Shown here in pieces: positions 10,828 to 18,494 of a stretch of 64,000 nucleotides of DNA. The DNA is from Paracoccus methylovorus (GTDB lineage: Bacteria; Pseudomonadota; Alphaproteobacteria; Rhodobacterales; Rhodobacteraceae). The stretch is taken from NCBI RefSeq assembly GCF_016919705.1, contig NZ_CP070368.1:1178001-1242000 (forward strand), read 5' to 3'. The translations under genes were made by a program, and so were the position numbers. The notes under the pieces were generated by a model that saw only the letters and a list, made by a program, of their open reading frames with translations, searched no databases and had not been told where the DNA came from. Every line of letters begins with the position of its first letter. Position 1 is the stretch's first letter.

Positions 10828-12180
10828 ATGCGTCTGTCGCGCTATTTCATGCCCGTCCTGAAGGAAGACCCCAAAGAAGCCCAGATCGTCAGCCACAGGC
10901 TGATGCTGCGCGCCGGCATGATCAAGCAGCAGACGGCCGGCATTTATTCCTGGCTGCCGCTGGGCCACAGGGTGCTGCGCCGGATCGAACAGATCGTGCA
11001 TGAGGAACAGGCCCGCGCCGGCCATATCGCCATGCTGATGCCGACGCTCCAGCCGGCGGACTTGTGGCGCGAAAGCGGCCGCTACGACGATTACGGCGAG
11101 GAGATGCTGCGCATCAAGGACCGCCACAAGCGCGACCTGCTTTACGGTCCCACGAACGAGGAGATGGTCACCGACATCTTCCGCAGCCATGTGAACAGCT
11201 ACAAGGATCTGCCGCTGACGCTGTATCACGTGCAGTGGAAGTTCCGCGATGAGATCCGCCCGCGTTTCGGCGTCATGCGCGGCCGCGAATTCCTGATGAA
11301 GGACGGCTATAACTTCGACCTGACCAAGGAAGATGCGCTGCACGCCTATAACCGCCATCTGGTCAGCTATCTGCGCACCTATGAACGCATGGGATTGCAA
11401 GCCATTCCGATGCGCGCCGACGGCGGTCCCATCGGCGGCGACTATACGCATGAATTCCTTGTGTTGGCCGAGACCGGCGAGTCCGAGGTCTTTTATGACA
11501 GCGAGATCACCGACCTGAAATTCGGTGGCCGCCATATCGACTATGACAACGTCGCCGAGTGTCAGGCGGTGCTGGAGGAGTTCACCAGCCGCTATGCCCG
11601 CACCGACGAGACCCATGACGAGGCGCTGTTCAACCAGGTCCCGCAGGAACGTCGCCGGCAGGCGCGTGGCATCGAGGTCGGGCAAATCTTCTATTTCGGC
11701 ACCAAATACTCGGAGCCGATGGGCGCGACCGTCGTCGGACCGGACGGAAATCGCGTGCCGGTGCATATGGGCTCGCACGGGATCGGGGTCTCGCGGTTGC
11801 TGGGCGCGATCATCGAAGCCAGTCACGACGACAAGGGCATCATCTGGCCCGAGGGCGTCACGCCCTTCCATGTCGGGATCGTCAATCTGAAACAGGGCGA
11901 TGCTTCGACCGATGGCGCTTGCGAGGCGCTTTACGCCGAGTTGAAGGCGCAGGGTCTGGATCCGCTTTACGATGATCGTGACGAAAGAGCGGGTGCGAAA
12001 TTCGCCACCATGGACCTGATCGGCCTGCCTTGGCGCATCACCGTGGGTCCACGCGGCTTGGCGGCCAACAAGGTCGAATTGACCTCGCGCCGCACGGGCG
12101 AGTCGGTCGAGCTTTCGCCGCAAGAGGCGGTCGTCCGGCTGCAGGAGATTTATCGGCCGGTGGCCGAGGCGGCGAAATAA
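10828..12180 (+). CDS. proS: Prolyl-tRNA synthetase, short form without INS domain
   Basis: A class II aminoacyl-tRNA synthetase that charges tRNA-Pro. It has 450 residues, against about 570 in E. coli, because the editing INS domain between motifs 2 and 3 is absent; this short type is normal in Alphaproteobacteria. Motif 2 is seen as [18 protein letters not shown] from about residue 136 and motif 3 as [10 protein letters not shown] at about 317. A C-terminal anticodon-binding domain follows (KLQ-like [12 protein letters not shown] onward). The start [14 protein letters not shown] has AGGA 8 bases upstream. The same frame is open far upstream, but that stretch is the shadow of the transporter on the other strand. 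A strong terminator follows at 12240. Confidence 0.97.
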
Positions 12181-12271: not shown

Positions 12272-12507
12272 GATGCGTGGCAATATGCTCGGGCGGCGGT
12301 CGTTCCGCCAGCACACGTCCGTAAGGGTCGGGAATCTGGACATCAACAACGCGACGTCGGCCTTAATGGTTTCTTCATCTGCAATTATCATTATGACGTC
12401 AAAGAGGTGATCGCGACTGTCGCCCGATTCCATGTCTGCCCGGAAATCTACTGGACTGACGGCATGATTTGGGCAGGATCGGCGGCGGGTTTGTTGGTGT
12501 ATGGGTC
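12272..12507. other. Intergenic region before the glycan cassette
   Basis: Together with the terminator and repeat, this makes a 327-base gap between proS and the SGNH hydrolase gene. The part 12340-12420 is clearly richer in A and T than its surroundings and ends with TTATCATTATGACGTCAAAG, a plausible place for promoter or regulator sites, but no convincing -35/-10 pair was found. Short open frames here lack ribosome-binding sites and codon bias. No RNA gene was recognised. Confidence 0.5.
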
Positions 12508-13674
12508 ATGGGTTCAGGCGGAGCAAAACGTATCGGCATGGGGATTCTGGTCGCCGCAATGGTTGCGGCGGGCGCATTTTTTGCCTGGCACAAGCCGCCG
12601 CGTCCGCTAACGCCTGTGCCGGCACTGAGCCTTGCGAATGACGCGGGTTTTCAGGCCAACCTGATCCCGCCGCAACCCGGATTGTCCGCCCTGCCCGCCG
12701 AGGTAACCGGACGCGTGGCAGCGGGTCCCTTGGCCGAGGGGTATCGTCACGAATGGCCGGCTTTCCATGCCTCGGCCAGGTTCGAAGGGACGGGCGTCAT
12801 CCTGCGTTTTGACGATTCGCTCAATCGCTGGCGCGTGACCGTGGATGACAAGGCGGTCGAGATTTCCCGCCCCGGGCAGCAGGATCTGCGCATAGACGGG
12901 CTTTTGCCCGGCCCTCACGATATCCGCGCCGAGAAGATCAGCGAATCAAGTGGCCCGGCGCTTTTCGGCGGATTCTTTCTGGATGATCGCGCCAAGGCAC
13001 TGTCCCCATCGCCGCCCACACCGCGGCTGATCGAGTTCATCGGCGACTCCGATACCGTCGGCTTTGCCAACACCGCCGAGCGCCGCGATTGCGATGCAGG
13101 GGAAATCTATGCTGCGACGGATACCAGCCGCAGCTTCGGCCCCCAGGTCGCGGCCGCGATTGACGCGGATTACCGAATCATCGCCCGCTCGGGCATCGGG
13201 CTTTTGCGCAATTACGGGGGGGCGGATCCGGAACATACCATGGACCAGCTTTACCCGCTGGCCCTGCCGGGGGACCCCGCAGCACCCGCCATACCGCAAC
13301 GCAAGGCGGATATCCTTGTCATCGGGCTTGGCTCCAACGTCTTCGGATCGGAACTGGCACCTGGCGAGCGTTGGCGCGACAAGGCCCAATTGCGCCATGA
13401 CTTCGGCCCCGCGCTGGCCGATTTCGCCGCCGCGCGCATGCAAGAGAACCCGGGCGCGCTTCTGGTGCTCTTGGCTTTCGGAGAATACGGGCCCGAGTTG
13501 ATCGAGGCGCATCGCACCGCCTCGGAGCTGCTGACCGCCCGGGGTTTTGGAAACCGCTTGCTTATTCTGCCCAATCCAAAGCGCAATGCCTGTCTATGGC
13601 ATCCATCGGCCAGCGACCACAAGATGATCGCACAGGCGCTTATCGACGAGTTGAAGGGGCTGGATCACCGCTGA
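12508..13674 (+). CDS. Secreted or anchored SGNH hydrolase, carbohydrate esterase 2-like
   Basis: A protein of 388 residues. A basic start and a hydrophobic segment (RIGMGILVAAMVAAGAFFAW) form a signal anchor. The middle part looks like the jelly-roll N-terminal domain of CE2 acetylesterases. The C-terminal SGNH part has the nucleophile block FIGDSDTVGFAN, the CE2-like block SGIGLLRNYGG, ILVIGLGSNVFG in place of the block III GxND region, and a last block CLWHPSASDH holding the catalytic His. CE2 enzymes remove acetyl groups from polysaccharides. ATG 12508 was preferred to a TTG at 12469, which would add 13 residues before the anchor; neither has a strong ribosome-binding site. Acetyl esterase activity on a surface glycan is inferred from the family and the GT61 neighbour. 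Confidence 0.75.
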   Translation: MGSGGAKRIGMGILVAAMVAAGAFFAWHKPPRPLTPVPALSLANDAGFQANLIPPQPGLSALPAEVTGRVAAGPLAEGYRHEWPAFHASARFEGTGVILRFDDSLNRWRVTVDDKAVEISRPGQQDLRIDGLLPGPHDIRAEKISESSGPALFGGFFLDDRAKALSPSPPTPRLIEFIGDSDTVGFANTAERRDCDAGEIYAATDTSRSFGPQVAAAIDADYRIIARSGIGLLRNYGGADPEHTMDQLYPLALPGDPAAPAIPQRKADILVIGLGSNVFGSELAPGERWRDKAQLRHDFGPALADFAAARMQENPGALLVLLAFGEYGPELIEAHRTASELLTARGFGNRLLILPNPKRNACLWHPSASDHKMIAQALIDELKGLDHR

Positions 13675-13747
13675 AACAATCGATCTGCCCCTTGCGCCCG
13701 TCGCCTTGCGTCCTCAAACTCCACCAGACAAGCCAGCCGAGCCGCCA

Positions 13748-14800
13748 ATGCATTCCCTCCGACCGATCCACAACCGCCTGCGTCGCCTTTTCGGTCTGGC
13801 CCGCGCGGATTTTTTCGACACTGCTGTCGAGCGGTGGGAAATCTGTCCCGCCGAGGTGGTCGAAATCACACCGGGGATTTGGCTGCCCGATCAGATCGAG
13901 CATATTTCGCGAACCGAATTCGGCGCGTTGCCCGATATTCTCGCGCAGATGCAGGGCAATCCGGCGGAACACACCTCGCCGACCATGGGGTATCGGTTTC
14001 GCGACGTCGATTTCGTCGATGGCGTGTTGCATGCCCGCGGGGCCGAGCGGCACTTGCGCCAGCGCAAGCAGTCCCGGCTGACATATGCCCCGCCGCGCGA
14101 AAGCCTGTCAGGGGCGCTTTACGAAAGCTGGATCGGCAACCGCTGGTTCGGCAACTGGTTGCTGAATGACTGCCTGGCCTATCGCCTTGCCGAAGATGCC
14201 GGCGCGCCCGTGACCTCGGCCCCTGTCCGCGGCGGCCATATCGCGCGCTACGAAGAATTGCTGGGCATGGCGCCGCACCGTATCGGCGACGCACATTTCG
14301 ACGAACTGATCCTGTTCGACGACCTGCACAACAACAGCCACCGCCGCGCACGCGCGCAGGAAAACCGCGCCCGCATCCTGAATGGCGCCGTGTCGAAACC
14401 CCTGCGCGGTGTTTTTATCTTTCGCGGCGACAGCGGTGATGCCCGCATCCTTGAGAACGAGGCCGAGATCGCCGAGCGGTTGGAGGCCGAATACGGCTTT
14501 CTCACACTCTATATAGACCGTCATGATGCGGATGAACTGGCCCATGCGGCCGGCGCGGCCCAACTGGTAGTCGGGGTCGAGGGGAGCCAGTTGGCCCATG
14601 GCGTGATCGCCATGGCTCCGGGCGGGACGGTGCTGACGCTGCAGCCGGCGGACCGGGTGACGACCTCTCTCAAGCTGCTGACGGATTGCTGGCAGCAGCG
14701 TTACGCCATGGTTGTGGGCTCGGGCACCGCCCGCGGCTATCTGGTGGAATGGGACCAGATCCGGCGCACTCTTGACCTGATCGCCGCCCAAATCCCCTAA
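13748..14800 (+). CDS. Glycosyltransferase family 61 (DUF563) protein
   Basis: A protein of 350 residues with the layout of bacterial GT61 proteins, which are often encoded in capsule and exopolysaccharide loci. Characteristic segments are GNRWFGNWLLNDCLAYRLAED in the first half, FDELILFDDLHNNSHRRAR, GVFIFRGDSGDARILENE, and a last block GVEGSQLAHGVIAMAPGGTVLTLQP near residue 275, matching the conserved G-S-x-L-x-N/H region of the family. No signal peptide or membrane helix is seen, so it should act in the cytoplasm on a nucleotide sugar. The ATG at 13748 is preferred over a TTG 42 bases upstream. It follows the esterase gene by 73 bases. Donor and acceptor are unknown. Confidence 0.8.
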   Translation: MHSLRPIHNRLRRLFGLARADFFDTAVERWEICPAEVVEITPGIWLPDQIEHISRTEFGALPDILAQMQGNPAEHTSPTMGYRFRDVDFVDGVLHARGAERHLRQRKQSRLTYAPPRESLSGALYESWIGNRWFGNWLLNDCLAYRLAEDAGAPVTSAPVRGGHIARYEELLGMAPHRIGDAHFDELILFDDLHNNSHRRARAQENRARILNGAVSKPLRGVFIFRGDSGDARILENEAEIAERLEAEYGFLTLYIDRHDADELAHAAGAAQLVVGVEGSQLAHGVIAMAPGGTVLTLQPADRVTTSLKLLTDCWQQRYAMVVGSGTARGYLVEWDQIRRTLDLIAAQIP

Positions 14801-14894
14801 AACCCGTCCTAACAGTCAGGTTGAGTTTGGCGCGAGACATCGGAATATGTACCCGGGCAAGCTTTATTTCCCGCCGAAGTAATTAAACAAGTGT

Positions 14895-15437
14895 ATGGTG
14901 ATGTTCGAAACTCTCCGGGATGACTACAAAAGACACGGCCGTTCGCTGACTGAGCCCGCCTTTGTCTCACTTGCCGTCTATCGCTATGGCCGATGGGCCA
15001 TCGGGCTAAGAAATCCGCTGCTGCGCTGGCTGGCCAACAAGCTTTACGCGGTGATGAAGACCCTGATCCTGAACGTGACCAAGGTCTGGATTCCGCCGCA
15101 GGTCGTTCTGGGCAAGGACTTCCACATCATCCACGCCGAGGGCTCGCTTTCCATCCATCCCGATGTGGTGATCGGCGACCGCTGCGGTGTGATGCACAAT
15201 GTCACCATCGGCACCAATATGGGGCCGGGGGCGCCGGTGATCGGCGACGATGTGTTCATTGGGGTAAATTCCTGCGTGCTGGGGCCGATCACCATCGGCG
15301 ACAGGGTGCGGATCGGCGCCAATACCGCGGTGACGACCAATGTGCCGCCGGATTCGGTGGTGATCGGGTCACCGGCCAAAATCTATCCCAGCCTGCCGAT
15401 CTTTGCCGCCAGAAAAAAGGTCCCCGCCGATGAGTGA
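14895..15437 (+). CDS. Serine acetyltransferase-like hexapeptide acyltransferase
   Basis: A 180-residue left-handed beta-helix acyltransferase of the CysE/EpsC type. An alpha-helical N-terminus (residues 1-70) is followed by hexapeptide repeats: IHPDVVIGDRCGVMHNVTIG, PVIGDDVFIGVNS, ITIGDRVRIGANTAVTTNV. The family ending GSPAKIYPS is also present. The His in the MHNVTIG coil fits the catalytic residue. It lacks the long helical domain of housekeeping CysE, and similar short proteins occur in exopolysaccharide loci. Its stop overlaps the start of the AMP ligase gene by 8 bases, so the two are probably translationally coupled. It may acylate a sugar, or accept the carrier-bound product of the next three genes. 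The start is ATG 14895; a second ATG at 14901 is possible. Confidence 0.8.
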   Translation: MVMFETLRDDYKRHGRSLTEPAFVSLAVYRYGRWAIGLRNPLLRWLANKLYAVMKTLILNVTKVWIPPQVVLGKDFHIIHAEGSLSIHPDVVIGDRCGVMHNVTIGTNMGPGAPVIGDDVFIGVNSCVLGPITIGDRVRIGANTAVTTNVPPDSVVIGSPAKIYPSLPIFAARKKVPADE

Positions 15438-17001
15438 CGATTTCGACCGCTGCATGTGGCGGATGCTGGCCGACAACCTGCCGGTCCGCGCGGAAAAGAC
15501 CGCCGCCGTGGATCAGGGCCGCGCGGCAAGCTACGCCGAACTCGCGGCCGAGGCGGGGCGCGTGGCCGATTGGCTGGTATCGCGCGGTATCCGGCCCGGC
15601 GACCGGGTGATCGTGCATCTGCGCAAGGGCATAGACGAGGTCGGGGCCATGTTCGGCGCCTGGAAAATGGGTGCCGTGGTCATCAACGTGAACATCCGCT
15701 GGACGGCTGCGCAGCTTGCCTATGTCGCGCACGACAGCCGTGCGCGCGCGGTGATTTTACCCCGCAATGCGCTTGATGCGCTGACGGGCGAACATGCCTT
15801 GCCCGAGGGCACGGCATATCTTGTTCAGGGCAAGGCCGAGGGCCTTGTCCAGGGCGCGGACCCCTGGCAGGCGCTTGCCGCCGACCAGGCTTCCGCGCCC
15901 GACGAACCCGACCCGCGCGGGTTGGCGATGATCATCTATACCTCGGGCTCGACCGGCGCGCCCAAGGGGGTGATGCTGAGCCATCGCAATATCCGCGCGG
16001 GTGCCATCTCGGTCGCCGATTATCTGGGATTGGACGAAAGCGACCGCCTGCTTTCGGTGCTGCCCTATAGTTTCGACGCCGGGCTGAATCAGTTGACCAC
16101 CATGCTCCTGACCGGGGGAACGGTGGTGCATCAACCGCTGACCATGCCGGCCGAGATCATCCGCATGGCCAAGGCCGAAGCGGTGACCGGCATCGCCGGT
16201 GTGCCGCCGCTCTGGAACCAGATCGTGCGGCTGCTGGTGGACCGGCCTACCGAACTGCCGACGCTACGCCGGATCACCAATACCGGGGGCAAGATCCCCC
16301 CGAATATTCTGGAACTGCTGCCGCAGGTCTTTCCGGGGGTCGACATCTACCTGATGTATGGGCTGACCGAGGCTTTCCGCTCGACCTACCTGCCGCCGCA
16401 GAAGTTTGCGCAGAAGATGGGTTCGATCGGAAGGCAGATCCCGAACGCGCAGGTCTTTGCCATCAAGCATGGTGAAGGCGTCGCCGGCCCGGGCGAGCAG
16501 GGCGAACTGGTCCACGCCGGCCCGCTGGTAAGCATGGGATATTGGGAGAAGCCCGAGATCACCGCACAGAAAATCCGCCCCTGTCCCGAGCTCTTCCACC
16601 TGCTGGGGGACGAGGCCGTGGTGTGGTCGGGCGATCTGGTCCGCGTCGATGAGGATGGCGATCTGTGGTTCGTCAGCCGCATGGACGAAATGATCAAGAC
16701 GCTGGGTTTCCGCCTGTCGCCCACCGAAGTCGAGGATGCGATATCGCAAAGCGGCCTTGTCACCGACGTCGTGGCCTTCGGGGTCGAGGACGCGGATCTG
16801 GGTCAAGCGGTTCACACGGTGGTGACCTATCTGCCGCAGGCCGAGGAAAGCGCGCTTGCCGCACATTGCGCCCGCACCATGCCGCATTACATGCGACCTC
16901 AGCGCTACCATTGCTGGCAAGGCGCCATGCCGCGTACGGCCAGCGGCAAGCTGGACCGTCCCGCCATCATTTCCGCGGCGAGGGCCGCATTGCAGAACTG
17001 A
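15430..17001 (+). CDS. AMP-forming acyl/aminoacyl ligase, exosortase-A-locus type
   Basis: A 523-residue member of the adenylate-forming (ANL) superfamily. It shows the phosphate loop YTSGSTGAPKG near residue 170, A5 motif MYGLTEAFRSTYL near 307, the hinge/A8 segment SRMDEMIKTLGFRLSPTEVE, and the C-terminal catalytic Lys in PRTASGKLDR near 505. The GLTEAFRSTYLPP block and the gene order (ligase, carrier protein, PLP decarboxylase) are those I associate with the AMP-ligase of exosortase-A exopolysaccharide loci (TIGR03098 type). It presumably activates an amino or carboxylic acid and loads it on the 78-residue carrier protein encoded 19 bases downstream. The start ATG lies inside the end of the previous gene. 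The substrate is unknown. Confidence 0.85.
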   Translation: MSDDFDRCMWRMLADNLPVRAEKTAAVDQGRAASYAELAAEAGRVADWLVSRGIRPGDRVIVHLRKGIDEVGAMFGAWKMGAVVINVNIRWTAAQLAYVAHDSRARAVILPRNALDALTGEHALPEGTAYLVQGKAEGLVQGADPWQALAADQASAPDEPDPRGLAMIIYTSGSTGAPKGVMLSHRNIRAGAISVADYLGLDESDRLLSVLPYSFDAGLNQLTTMLLTGGTVVHQPLTMPAEIIRMAKAEAVTGIAGVPPLWNQIVRLLVDRPTELPTLRRITNTGGKIPPNILELLPQVFPGVDIYLMYGLTEAFRSTYLPPQKFAQKMGSIGRQIPNAQVFAIKHGEGVAGPGEQGELVHAGPLVSMGYWEKPEITAQKIRPCPELFHLLGDEAVVWSGDLVRVDEDGDLWFVSRMDEMIKTLGFRLSPTEVEDAISQSGLVTDVVAFGVEDADLGQAVHTVVTYLPQAEESALAAHCARTMPHYMRPQRYHCWQGAMPRTASGKLDRPAIISAARAALQN

Positions 17002-17020
17002 CCAGAAAGGCATTGAATCC

Positions 17021-17257
17021 ATGAGCTTGAGCAAGGACGAGTTGATCCGCTATATCCGCAGCGACCTGAACATCGACACGCCGCTGGAGGGCGAGACCGA
17101 GCTGTTCTCGACCGGCATGCTGGATTCGGTGGCGATGGTAGGGCTGATCTCATTCGTCGAACAGCAGGCCGGCGTACGCGTCCAGCCCGGCGACGTGACG
17201 CTGGACAATTTCGATACCGTCGATGCCATCCTTGCCTATGTGCAGTCCCTTGACTGA
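17021..17257 (+). CDS. Stand-alone acyl carrier protein of the ligase cassette
   Basis: A 78-residue carrier protein. The phosphopantetheine site is Ser36 in GMLDSVAMVGL, preceded by a typical helix-I/loop region and followed by the acidic helix ISFVEQQAGVRV. AGAAAGG lies upstream of the ATG at about 10 bases. It differs from housekeeping AcpP, which carries a DSLD/E-type motif, and from the second carrier protein at 61.9-62.1 kb. It sits between the AMP ligase and the PLP decarboxylase, so it should carry the activated substrate on a phosphopantetheine thioester. The 3' end overlaps the next gene, which suggests coupled translation. Confidence 0.9.
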   Translation: MSLSKDELIRYIRSDLNIDTPLEGETELFSTGMLDSVAMVGLISFVEQQAGVRVQPGDVTLDNFDTVDAILAYVQSLD

Positions 17258-18494
17258 CGTTGAGACCGGCCTTGACCGGCAGTTGGCTAATGCCGCCGCG
17301 CGTTTCGGCACTCCGGCCTATGTCTATGCCACCGATCTGGTCGAGGCGCGGCTGGCGCATCTTCGCACGCATCTAGGGCGCTGGTTCGCCATCAGTTTCG
17401 CAGTCAAGAGCAACCCCAATCCAGCCATGCTGGACTGGATGCGGGACCGGCTGGATTACCTCGACATCTCATCGGGCGGAGAATTCGCATTGGGCCGGCA
17501 GGCGGGTTGGGATGCGGCGAAGATCAGCTTTACCGGCCCGGCCAAGCGCGAAACCGAGCTGCGCGCCGCCATCGAGGGCGGTTTGGGCGAGTTGGTGCTG
17601 GAAAGCCTGCGCGAGGCACGACTGGCCGATGCCATCGCCAAAGAGTTGGGCTGCATACAGCCGGTGTTGATCCGCATCGCGCCGGCGCGCGTGCCCAAGG
17701 GGTTCGGCGACCAGATGGCGGGCCGGCCCAGCCCCTTTGGCGTCGATGTCGAGGACGCGGCCGAGATCCTGCCGCAAATCGCTGCCCTGCCGAACCTGCG
17801 CATCATCGGGCTGCATATCTATTCGGGCACGCAATGTCTGAAGCCCGAGGCGATTTGCGAAAACTGGCGCATCTTCATGCAGGTGTTTTCCGATATCTGC
17901 ACGACGCTGGATCTCAGTCCTGAAAAACTGATCTTCGGTGCCGGGCTCGGCATCCCCTATCATCCTGGCGACAATGAGTTGGACCTGTCGGCAATCGCGG
18001 CTGAAATCGGTCCCGAACTCGACGCCTTCCGCGCCGGTCCGCGCTTTGCCCGCAGCCGGCTGGTGCTGGAACTGGGCCGGTATCTTGTCGGACCGGCCGG
18101 CTGGTTCGTGACCCGTGTCGTCTCGGTCAAGCAGTCGCGGGGCAGCCGAATCGCGATTTGCGACGGCGGGCTGAACGACAACCTTGCCGCCTCGGGCAAT
18201 TTCGGCATGGTGCTGCGGCGCAATTACGTCATGCATCGCATAGGCGGGGACGAGAACGGCACCCTGCCCGAAGAAAAGCAGGATCTGTCCGGCCCGCTTT
18301 GCACCTCGATCGACAAGCTGGGGGGCGGCGTGACTTTGCCGCGGCTGGAAGAGGGCGACCTGATCGCCATCCACGCTTGCGGCGCTTACGGACCGACGGC
18401 CAGCCCGCTGCATTTCATCAGCCATCCCATGCCGGCCGAGGTGCTGATAACCGGCGGTCAGATGCAGGACGTGACACGTATCCGGGACCGCTGA
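17238..18494 (+). CDS. PLP-dependent decarboxylase (DAP/ornithine decarboxylase family), cassette type
   Basis: A protein of 418 residues of fold type III. PLP would bind Lys57 in SFAVKSNPNP. Family signatures follow: YLDISSGGEFALGR, IIGLHIYSGTQ, LELGRYLVGPAGWF, ICDGGLNDNLAASGNFG, the active-site Cys in GPLCTSIDKL, and HACGAYGPTASPLHFISHP near the end. These fit the exosortase-A-associated decarboxylase group (TIGR03099 type) and resemble BtrK of butirosin synthesis, which decarboxylates glutamate while it is tethered to a carrier protein. With the ligase and ACP next door, tethered decarboxylation is a reasonable inference. It is not housekeeping LysA, which is normally monocistronic or next to argH/lppL. 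The start is uncertain: ATG 17223, ATG 17238 or TTG 17250 (8-base overlap). Confidence 0.82.
   Translation: MCSPLTDVETGLDRQLANAAARFGTPAYVYATDLVEARLAHLRTHLGRWFAISFAVKSNPNPAMLDWMRDRLDYLDISSGGEFALGRQAGWDAAKISFTGPAKRETELRAAIEGGLGELVLESLREARLADAIAKELGCIQPVLIRIAPARVPKGFGDQMAGRPSPFGVDVEDAAEILPQIAALPNLRIIGLHIYSGTQCLKPEAICENWRIFMQVFSDICTTLDLSPEKLIFGAGLGIPYHPGDNELDLSAIAAEIGPELDAFRAGPRFARSRLVLELGRYLVGPAGWFVTRVVSVKQSRGSRIAICDGGLNDNLAASGNFGMVLRRNYVMHRIGGDENGTLPEEKQDLSGPLCTSIDKLGGGVTLPRLEEGDLIAIHACGAYGPTASPLHFISHPMPAEVLITGGQMQDVTRIRDR

Follow-up and report, generated by a model that had tools for sequence, protein, structure and literature searches.

What does a gene set made up of an AMP-forming ligase, a carrier protein, and a decarboxylase produce, and where does the product go, when it adjoins genes for glycan enzymes? 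Such a set lies in the 64,000-nucleotide stretch of DNA analysed here (the window), which comes from the soil bacterium Paracoccus methylovorus. The parent genome, in the genus Paracoccus, has 4.38 Mb in five contigs. Six genes on the plus strand, from 12469 to 18494, encode in this order a CE2-type carbohydrate esterase, a GT61 glycosyltransferase, a left-handed beta-helix acyltransferase (LbH), the ligase, an acyl carrier protein (ACP), and a pyridoxal phosphate (PLP)-dependent decarboxylase. On balance, the results lean towards a cassette in which an omega-amino acyl group is built on the carrier and then transferred to a surface glycan. The first two steps of this proposal are based on residues, phylogeny, and characterised homologues, and the last three on gene linkage and family function.

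The initial annotation of this locus had described four overlapping or closely spaced genes with intact motifs from 14895 to 18494. Both points were borne out. All family matches are present in Pfam (hexapeptide transferase, 53.9 bits; AMP-binding, 264 bits; PP-binding, 25.7 bits; Orn/DAP decarboxylase, 101 and 56 bits), the LbH and ligase genes overlap by 8 bases, and the ACP and decarboxylase genes overlap by 20 bases, as is also annotated in the plasmids pAMI5 and pFER4. The residues that I take to be catalytic are kept: TSGSTG and Lys507 in the ligase (15 of 15 aligned sequences), Ser36 in the ACP (13 of 13 aligned sequences and all 39 cassette rows), and the PLP lysine Lys53 and Cys351 in the decarboxylase (18 of 18). 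The observation made in the initial annotation is sound and its direction right, while its interpretation is partly supported. It had placed the trio with the ligases and decarboxylases of exosortase A loci. TIGR03098 and TIGR03099 are indeed the best NCBIfam matches of the ligase and the decarboxylase, respectively, but both scores lie under the curated cut-offs (512.4 bits against 592.35, and 364.2 bits against 478.45).

What does the ligase (15430-17001) activate? When its whole length was compared with solved structures, two-domain LgrA entries came out on top (the better LgrA domain scored 255, and VinN 288). Because these two-domain entries headed the search, a fragment spanning the pocket was used, and its top solved match is VinN (3wv4/3wvn). 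VinN activates the beta-carboxyl group of 3-methylaspartate, its Asp230 has been read as the holder of the alpha-amino group and its Ser299 and Arg331 as the holders of the alpha-carboxyl group (PMC7756342), and a short beta13-beta14 loop and Phe231 are further features of the enzyme (PMC11253843). The VinN numbering used here is the chain position plus an offset of 16, which fits the published residues. It was found that D216, T285, and R317 of the ligase are the equivalents of Asp230, Ser299, and Arg331, and that the loop has the same length as in VinN without a gap. Thus, the ligase has a VinN-type pocket as defined by the Asp230 and Arg331 equivalents, Ser299 or Thr, and a short beta13-beta14 loop. 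With the Asp/Arg pocket kept, Asp or Glu is the expected substrate, with the side chain as the site of activation. An amino-dicarboxylate activated in this way is predicted from the residues with good confidence, and Asp is probably preferred to Glu. The earlier idea that an amino acid is loaded on the ACP is thereby refined to an amino-dicarboxylic acid loaded via its side-chain carboxylate. A fatty-acid CoA ligase was considered and rejected, since the best model of that kind in NCBIfam gives 273.9 bits against a cut-off of 476 and the pocket contains Asp and Arg.

Is this pocket common among the relatives of the ligase? I read the neighborhoods of 26 relatives and of the best 80 of at least 561 confirmed loci in named genomes. 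They gave 117 ligase rows, of which 91 and 9 were read first and 17 left out; L084, L088, and L109 were read afterwards. The pocket is not spanned by 14 rows, 12 of them pieces of a Rhizobiales AMP-binding/monooxygenase protein. D216 and R317 are kept in all 91 rows of at least 250 bits (39 cassette rows, 48 of the loci L075-L126, and 4 others). The 7 weaker partner ligases, among them L042 and L073, which were judged from their length to be one contig, all have the pair as well, so that it is present in 98 of 98 partner rows. It is also kept in 48 of 48 ligases belonging to the wider group at 40% identity and in those of L043, L044, and L045, where an exosortase lies at a distance of 9-14 kb. 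Of 2294 ligase homologues, the 120 that were listed have it too; most of these 120 bear no given name, and one is called exosortase A-associated. R317 also occurs in the two edge fragments L088 and L109. It is absent from a FadD-like ligase (L040), from a nonribosomal peptide synthetase-type ligase (L112), and from CmiS6, whose substrate 3-aminononanoate has no matching carboxylate (PMC11253843). In the parent genome, 20 other AMP-binding matches were found, and none of the 12 proteins with an alignable pocket that were read has R317; two of the remaining matches are one misaligned protein, and six lack a frame bearing the signature used. The presence of the Asp/Arg pair in every partner ligase read predicts one chemistry for the whole group, with side-chain activation followed by decarboxylation on the carrier, and the argument extends to the exosortase-associated pair, which has so far been named only by its exosortase company.

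Within this common pocket, residues 217 and 285 covary and define two sub-types, Ala/Thr and Tyr/Ser, where VinN has Phe/Ser. Ala/Thr is found in 34 of 48 ligases of L075-L126 and in 29 of 39 cassette rows, and Tyr/Ser in 14 of 48 and 7 of 39, respectively; the other three cassette rows have Tyr/Thr. The sub-types may mark a difference in substrate, such as Asp versus Glu.

The decarboxylase (17238-18494), a PLP enzyme of the fold-III type, decides whether the loaded group would be processed on the carrier. Its best solved matches are two BtrK sequences (7ru7/2j66) at 217 bits, one of them named L-glutamyl-[BtrI acyl-carrier protein] decarboxylase, and the best LysA reaches 136 bits. The lysA model, its second match in NCBIfam, gives 228 bits, short of the cut-off of 297.9. 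All 39 cassette rows have Cys-Thr (Thr352 in the window) where the aligned Aquifex LysA has Cys-Glu, and the same motif is found in 51 of 52 rows of L075-L126 and in 14 of 15 others. A tree of 41 rows was calculated, with 37 decarboxylases taken from 106 locus rows and the window. The two LysA rows group together, apart from the rest (100/99), although the program warns of possible attraction between LysA and the outgroup. One clade (97/96) holds 13 of the 14 cassette rows and L062, a locus with an ACP and a decarboxylase but no LbH or ligase match; the Nannocystaceae row L070 falls outside it. BtrK itself is placed in the sister clade, together with the decarboxylases of the exosortase genomes G091, G102, and G128, with modest support (87/84) and with BtrK and the ornithine decarboxylase-like outgroup flagged as long branches. 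The parent genome has its own LysA-like gene (C1:1345339-1346493), which is 30% identical to the decarboxylase and groups with Aquifex LysA, and a more distant member of the family (C1:1780303-1781319). An enzyme of the LysA type acting on free amino acids was thus ruled out on score, motif, and tree, and the claim that the decarboxylase is BtrK-like rather than LysA held. Judged by its relatives, the decarboxylase very probably acts on a carrier-bound substrate, and the product should be beta-alanyl-ACP or gamma-aminobutyryl (GABA)-ACP.

The carrier itself is a stand-alone protein of 78 residues (17021-17257; PF00550, above the cut-off) with Ser36 in an LDSV motif. Its top NCBIfam match is DltC, below the cut-off.

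Modules with the same predicted chemistry have been characterised. In the vicenistatin pathway, decarboxylation of 3-methylaspartate by VinO requires that it first be attached to VinL (PMC11284099). In the biosynthesis of AFC-BC11, AfcQ loads L-Asp on AfcK, where AfcP decarboxylates it to beta-alanine, repeatedly (PMC12186527). A bolN mutant is not rescued by free beta-alanine, BolN is said to be BtrK-like, and bolagladins may act as siderophores (PMC7756342). VinN/VinL/VinO and BtrI/BtrK are the nearest solved relatives of the cassette enzymes at the pocket (3wv4/3wvn) and the decarboxylase (7ru7/2j66), respectively, but they belong to a macrolactam pathway and an aminoglycoside side-chain pathway. 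The Afc (AfcQ/AfcK/AfcP) and Bol (BolO/BolC/BolN) sets share with the cassette a VinN-type stand-alone ligase, a stand-alone carrier, and a PLP decarboxylase, a likeness drawn from their descriptions and not from sequence. They differ in making lipopeptides, whereas the cassette has LbH, GT61, and CE2 partners and Ala in place of VinN Phe231. The partner ligase of BtrK, BtrJ, is of another fold. The exosortase A-associated pair resembles the cassette in its NCBIfam models and in the kept Asp and Arg; unlike it, the cassette lacks an exosortase in its own genome, has the ACP between the ligase and the decarboxylase, is linked to LbH and GT61, and scores below the cut-offs. In the open literature, searched by title and abstract with few subscription papers covered, no fitting paper was found on the TIGR03098/TIGR03099 pair or on a carrier-bound step in glycan decoration.

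Where might the acyl group go? The gene order gives an indication. There are 39 LbH locus rows with 35 distinct ligase sequences; four rows (L047, L049, L051, and L053) were judged duplicates, which leaves 35 loci in Rhodobacterales, Rhizobiales, and one Myxococcota metagenome-assembled genome (MAG). The comparison of gene order in other Paracoccus genomes that the initial annotation had proposed was included here, and the order LbH-ligase-ACP-decarboxylase is kept in all 35. GT61 is found in 32 and CE2 in 24 of them: 21 have the full six-gene order, 7 lack only CE2, 2 lack GT61, 4 have GT61 or CE2 shifted to the other side, and 1 has the four-gene core alone. This conservation is far beyond chance. 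The boundary drawn around four genes was therefore too narrow, because CE2 and GT61 belong to the set in most LbH loci; GT61 had already been mentioned, and CE2 is a further part that had not been named.

The cassette is patchy, since the decarboxylase is found (E <= 1e-60) in 27 of 148 relatives and yet in just 7 of 295 genomes across the family. LbH was found in 22 of the 148, namely 21 cassette genomes and G041, where a 3.1-kb contig carries a ligase end beside LbH and GT61. Among the 295, three have LbH, all with the ligase and the decarboxylase; two of these (G000, the parent genome, and G044) are also in the set of 148. The laboratory species Paracoccus denitrificans (strain DSM 413) carries all six genes, with proteins 80-93% identical, and other named carriers are P. 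thiocyanatus, P. kondratievae, P. limosus (without GT61), Neorhizobium, Rhizobium, Ruegeria, Defluviimonas, and a Nannocystaceae MAG. The flanks vary between lineages, and thus the set holds together on its own. Four decarboxylase loci (L062, L064, L066, and L067) have no ligase row.

The LbH gene (14895-15437; PF00132) encodes a serine-acetyltransferase-like protein that scores below the cut-offs of both EpsC (96 bits against 150) and CysE (76.6 bits against 210.65); a true serine acetyltransferase was ruled out on these scores. His77, His80, and His101 are present in 39 of 39 rows, and the residues that presumably bind serine in serine acetyltransferases look lost. CE2 (12469-13674, with a later start possible at 12508), an SGNH-type esterase, matches PF17996 at 52.9 bits (cut-off 27.9). 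Its best solved match is 2w9x (204 bits), and the GDS and WHPSA motifs, whose Ser and His I take to be catalytic, are kept. An N-terminal hydrophobic segment suggests that CE2 probably faces the envelope. GT61 (13706-14800, probable start ATG 13748) matches PF04577 at 52.6 bits (cut-off 27). Its relatives of 43-47% identity lie elsewhere in nine relatives, while the copy in G004 and G060 is the sole one found; no other cassette-gene relatives were found beside the six distant GT61 copies that were fetched.

The glycan setting that had been suggested draws support from the linked GT61 gene and, in other genomes, from the polysaccharide genes that surround the cassette. In Rhizobium terrae (L057), the cassette lies beside genes for a Poly_export protein, a phosphoglycosyltransferase (WcaJ model, 398 bits against a cut-off of 411; TIGR03025, 368 against 296), GT4, GT2, WecG, a GMC oxidoreductase, and a phosphopantetheinyl transferase, and most of these neighbors recur by gene clustering in L056, L058, L059, L065, and L069. 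In Paracoccus, a flippase-family protein and GT2 are encoded near the cassette of L034, and a Wzz-like protein (26.2 bits, cut-off 25.5) and an AT3-SGNH acyltransferase near that of L039. In pFER4, gmd and the genes for GDP-L-fucose synthase and a DegT aminotransferase lie directly upstream of the cassette, between it and proS (L146:2334-5545); Gmd and DegT were also found by Pfam in L038, and an epimerase in L048. Since the DegT aminotransferase would supply an amino sugar, this sugar is a possible acceptor. From gene linkage and family function, a glycan is likely to be the destination of the acyl group, and LbH is, with less assurance, the candidate transferase from the ACP to a sugar.

The proposed route would run as follows. 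The ligase would adenylate the side-chain carboxylate of an amino-dicarboxylate, most likely L-Asp and secondly L-Glu, with Asp216 holding the alpha-amino group and Arg317 the alpha-carboxylate, and would load the acyl group onto the ACP phosphopantetheine. The decarboxylase would then strip the free alpha-carboxylate on the ACP to give beta-alanyl-ACP, or GABA-ACP if the substrate is Glu. LbH would take the group over from the ACP and attach it to a sugar, at a hydroxyl or an amino group, GT61 would add the modified sugar or its neighbor to an envelope or extracellular glycan, and CE2 would trim or move ester-linked groups outside. As regards the acceptor, the transferase, and the final glycan, this route is an inference. 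The glycan would thereby gain positive charge, in a logic like that of Dlt D-alanylation, where a ligase and a carrier likewise supply a surface polymer with an aminoacyl group. In contrast to Dlt, the cassette is predicted to decarboxylate on the carrier and has LbH instead of the MBOAT protein DltB. If this is true, the cassette represents a new type of pathway by which bacterial surface glycans receive amino-acid substituents. More tentatively, there could be a Dlt-like charge modification in Gram-negative envelopes, in which beta-alanyl or GABA groups made on a carrier (possibly short beta-alanine oligomers as made by AfcQ) are put on an exported glycan by an LbH that uses aminoacyl-ACP, the exosortase A-associated pair having the same chemistry in another setting.

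Several points weigh against this proposal. VinN Phe231 and Lys330 are replaced by Ala217 and Phe316 in the ligase, so the bulky residue is missing and the specificity may differ; position 217 is Tyr in 10 of 39 cassette rows. A second ligase of 34% identity (L084:17578-19065), with Lys before the Arg as in VinN, has the Asp/Arg pair although it lies about 6 kb off the decarboxylase, and thus the pair is not a marker of adjacency alone. The relatives of LbH mostly use acyl-CoA, and the structure model of LbH is poor (pLDDT 57, pTM 0.35; three helices followed by short strands). Neither TIGR cut-off is reached. GT61 is absent from 3 and CE2 from 11 of the 35 loci, and the same-genus genomes G027 and G040 have a distant decarboxylase and a distant ligase with no LbH match. 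The three sugar genes of pFER4 are absent from the window, where proS ends at 12180 and CE2 starts at 12469, which leaves no room for them. Finally, the cassette on pAMI5, a plasmid of P. aminophilus, follows a TonB-Fhu uptake block (L145:419-6531) directly upstream of CE2.

The alternative that survives best, although unlikely, is that two modules share one operon: LbH would be an acetyl-CoA O-acetyltransferase balanced by CE2, and the aminoacyl group would be passed on by an unlinked enzyme. LbH is indeed closest to the acetyl-CoA enzymes CysE and EpsC, and CE2 esterases remove acetyl groups. Two divergent loci in a Phycisphaerales MAG (L072:5978-13832) and a Thioploca MAG (L063:4844-9881) have MBOAT genes beside the ligase, with the carrier and the decarboxylase but no LbH match, a layout that is reminiscent of Dlt; L072 also has a sub-threshold GDSL match beside this set. 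However, no MBOAT match was found among the six cassette genes with Pfam profiles, the LbH gene overlaps the ligase gene, and wherever it was found among the relatives (22 of 148), it adjoins the ligase.

Less probable still is a small diffusible molecule, a siderophore or another metabolite, that would carry a sugar along with beta-alanyl or GABA. The characterised modules for carrier-bound decarboxylation do make small molecules (PMC11284099, PMC7756342, PMC12186527), bolagladins being possible siderophores, and the uptake block on pAMI5 would suit such a product. The siderophore link suggested by pAMI5 was rejected, because none of the 54 other loci tested (L021-L074) has a relative of its TonB receptor, binding protein, or FhuB; the uptake ATPase has weak matches (25-29%) in five of the 54. 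Moreover, no polyketide synthase or condensation enzyme was found among the six genes with NCBIfam and Pfam profiles, and the recurrent partners are GT61 and polysaccharide genes. A cassette that decorates a surface glycan remains the preferred reading.

A strayed exosortase A-associated module acting on PEP-CTERM sorting or its polysaccharide is very improbable: its nearest NCBIfam models and the exosortases found 9-14 kb off in G091, G102, and G128 and about 12 kb off in G055 speak for it, but both TIGR scores are sub-threshold, 13 of 14 cassette decarboxylases form a clade apart from those of G091, G102, and G128, and no match to the exosortase family (PF09721) was found in 19 of the 21 same-genus cassette genomes, the parent genome among them.

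The statement that the cassette comes without an exosortase therefore holds for its own genome but is not absolute. PF09721 was found in 6 of 27 genomes tested, four outside the genus (at least 152 bits) and two within it. Three of the former are on the contig of the pair (G091, G102, and G128, whose decarboxylases are 39-40% identical). In the genus, G055 (L039) has an exosortase-like gene (C12:43662-44405, 52.8 bits) beyond the cassette, and G056 has a match of 33.3 bits on a contig other than that of the cassette. A crude BLAST for exosortases in the fetched short flanks gave 0 of 39 cassette loci and 6 of 52 of L075-L126, which are called exosortase-type by clade and similarity only; this search is insensitive, as L043-L045 from exosortase genomes also gave none.

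The cassette is flanked by genes for a proline-tRNA ligase and a cation/H+ antiporter, named from the same positions in the relative pFER4. A promoter scan found 0 sites against 1.4 expected. The pxm polysaccharide cluster of P. denitrificans, as far as described in the available part of the paper (PMC13235738), could not be tied to the cassette locus. In the two public plasmid records (pAMI5 and pFER4), the genes are annotated generically as serine acetyltransferase, AMP-binding protein or AMP-dependent synthetase, acyl carrier protein, and type III PLP-dependent enzyme. In Rhizobiales loci, a phosphopantetheinyl transferase and a 1213-residue AMP-binding/luciferase-monooxygenase/carrier protein are encoded near the cassette (L057:16939-21234). 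The parent genome has two phosphoglycosyltransferase genes elsewhere; in one region (G000:C1:1425299-1431137), a frame of 1541 residues that gives AMP-binding matches is separated by about 3 kb from a phosphoglycosyltransferase (198 bits).

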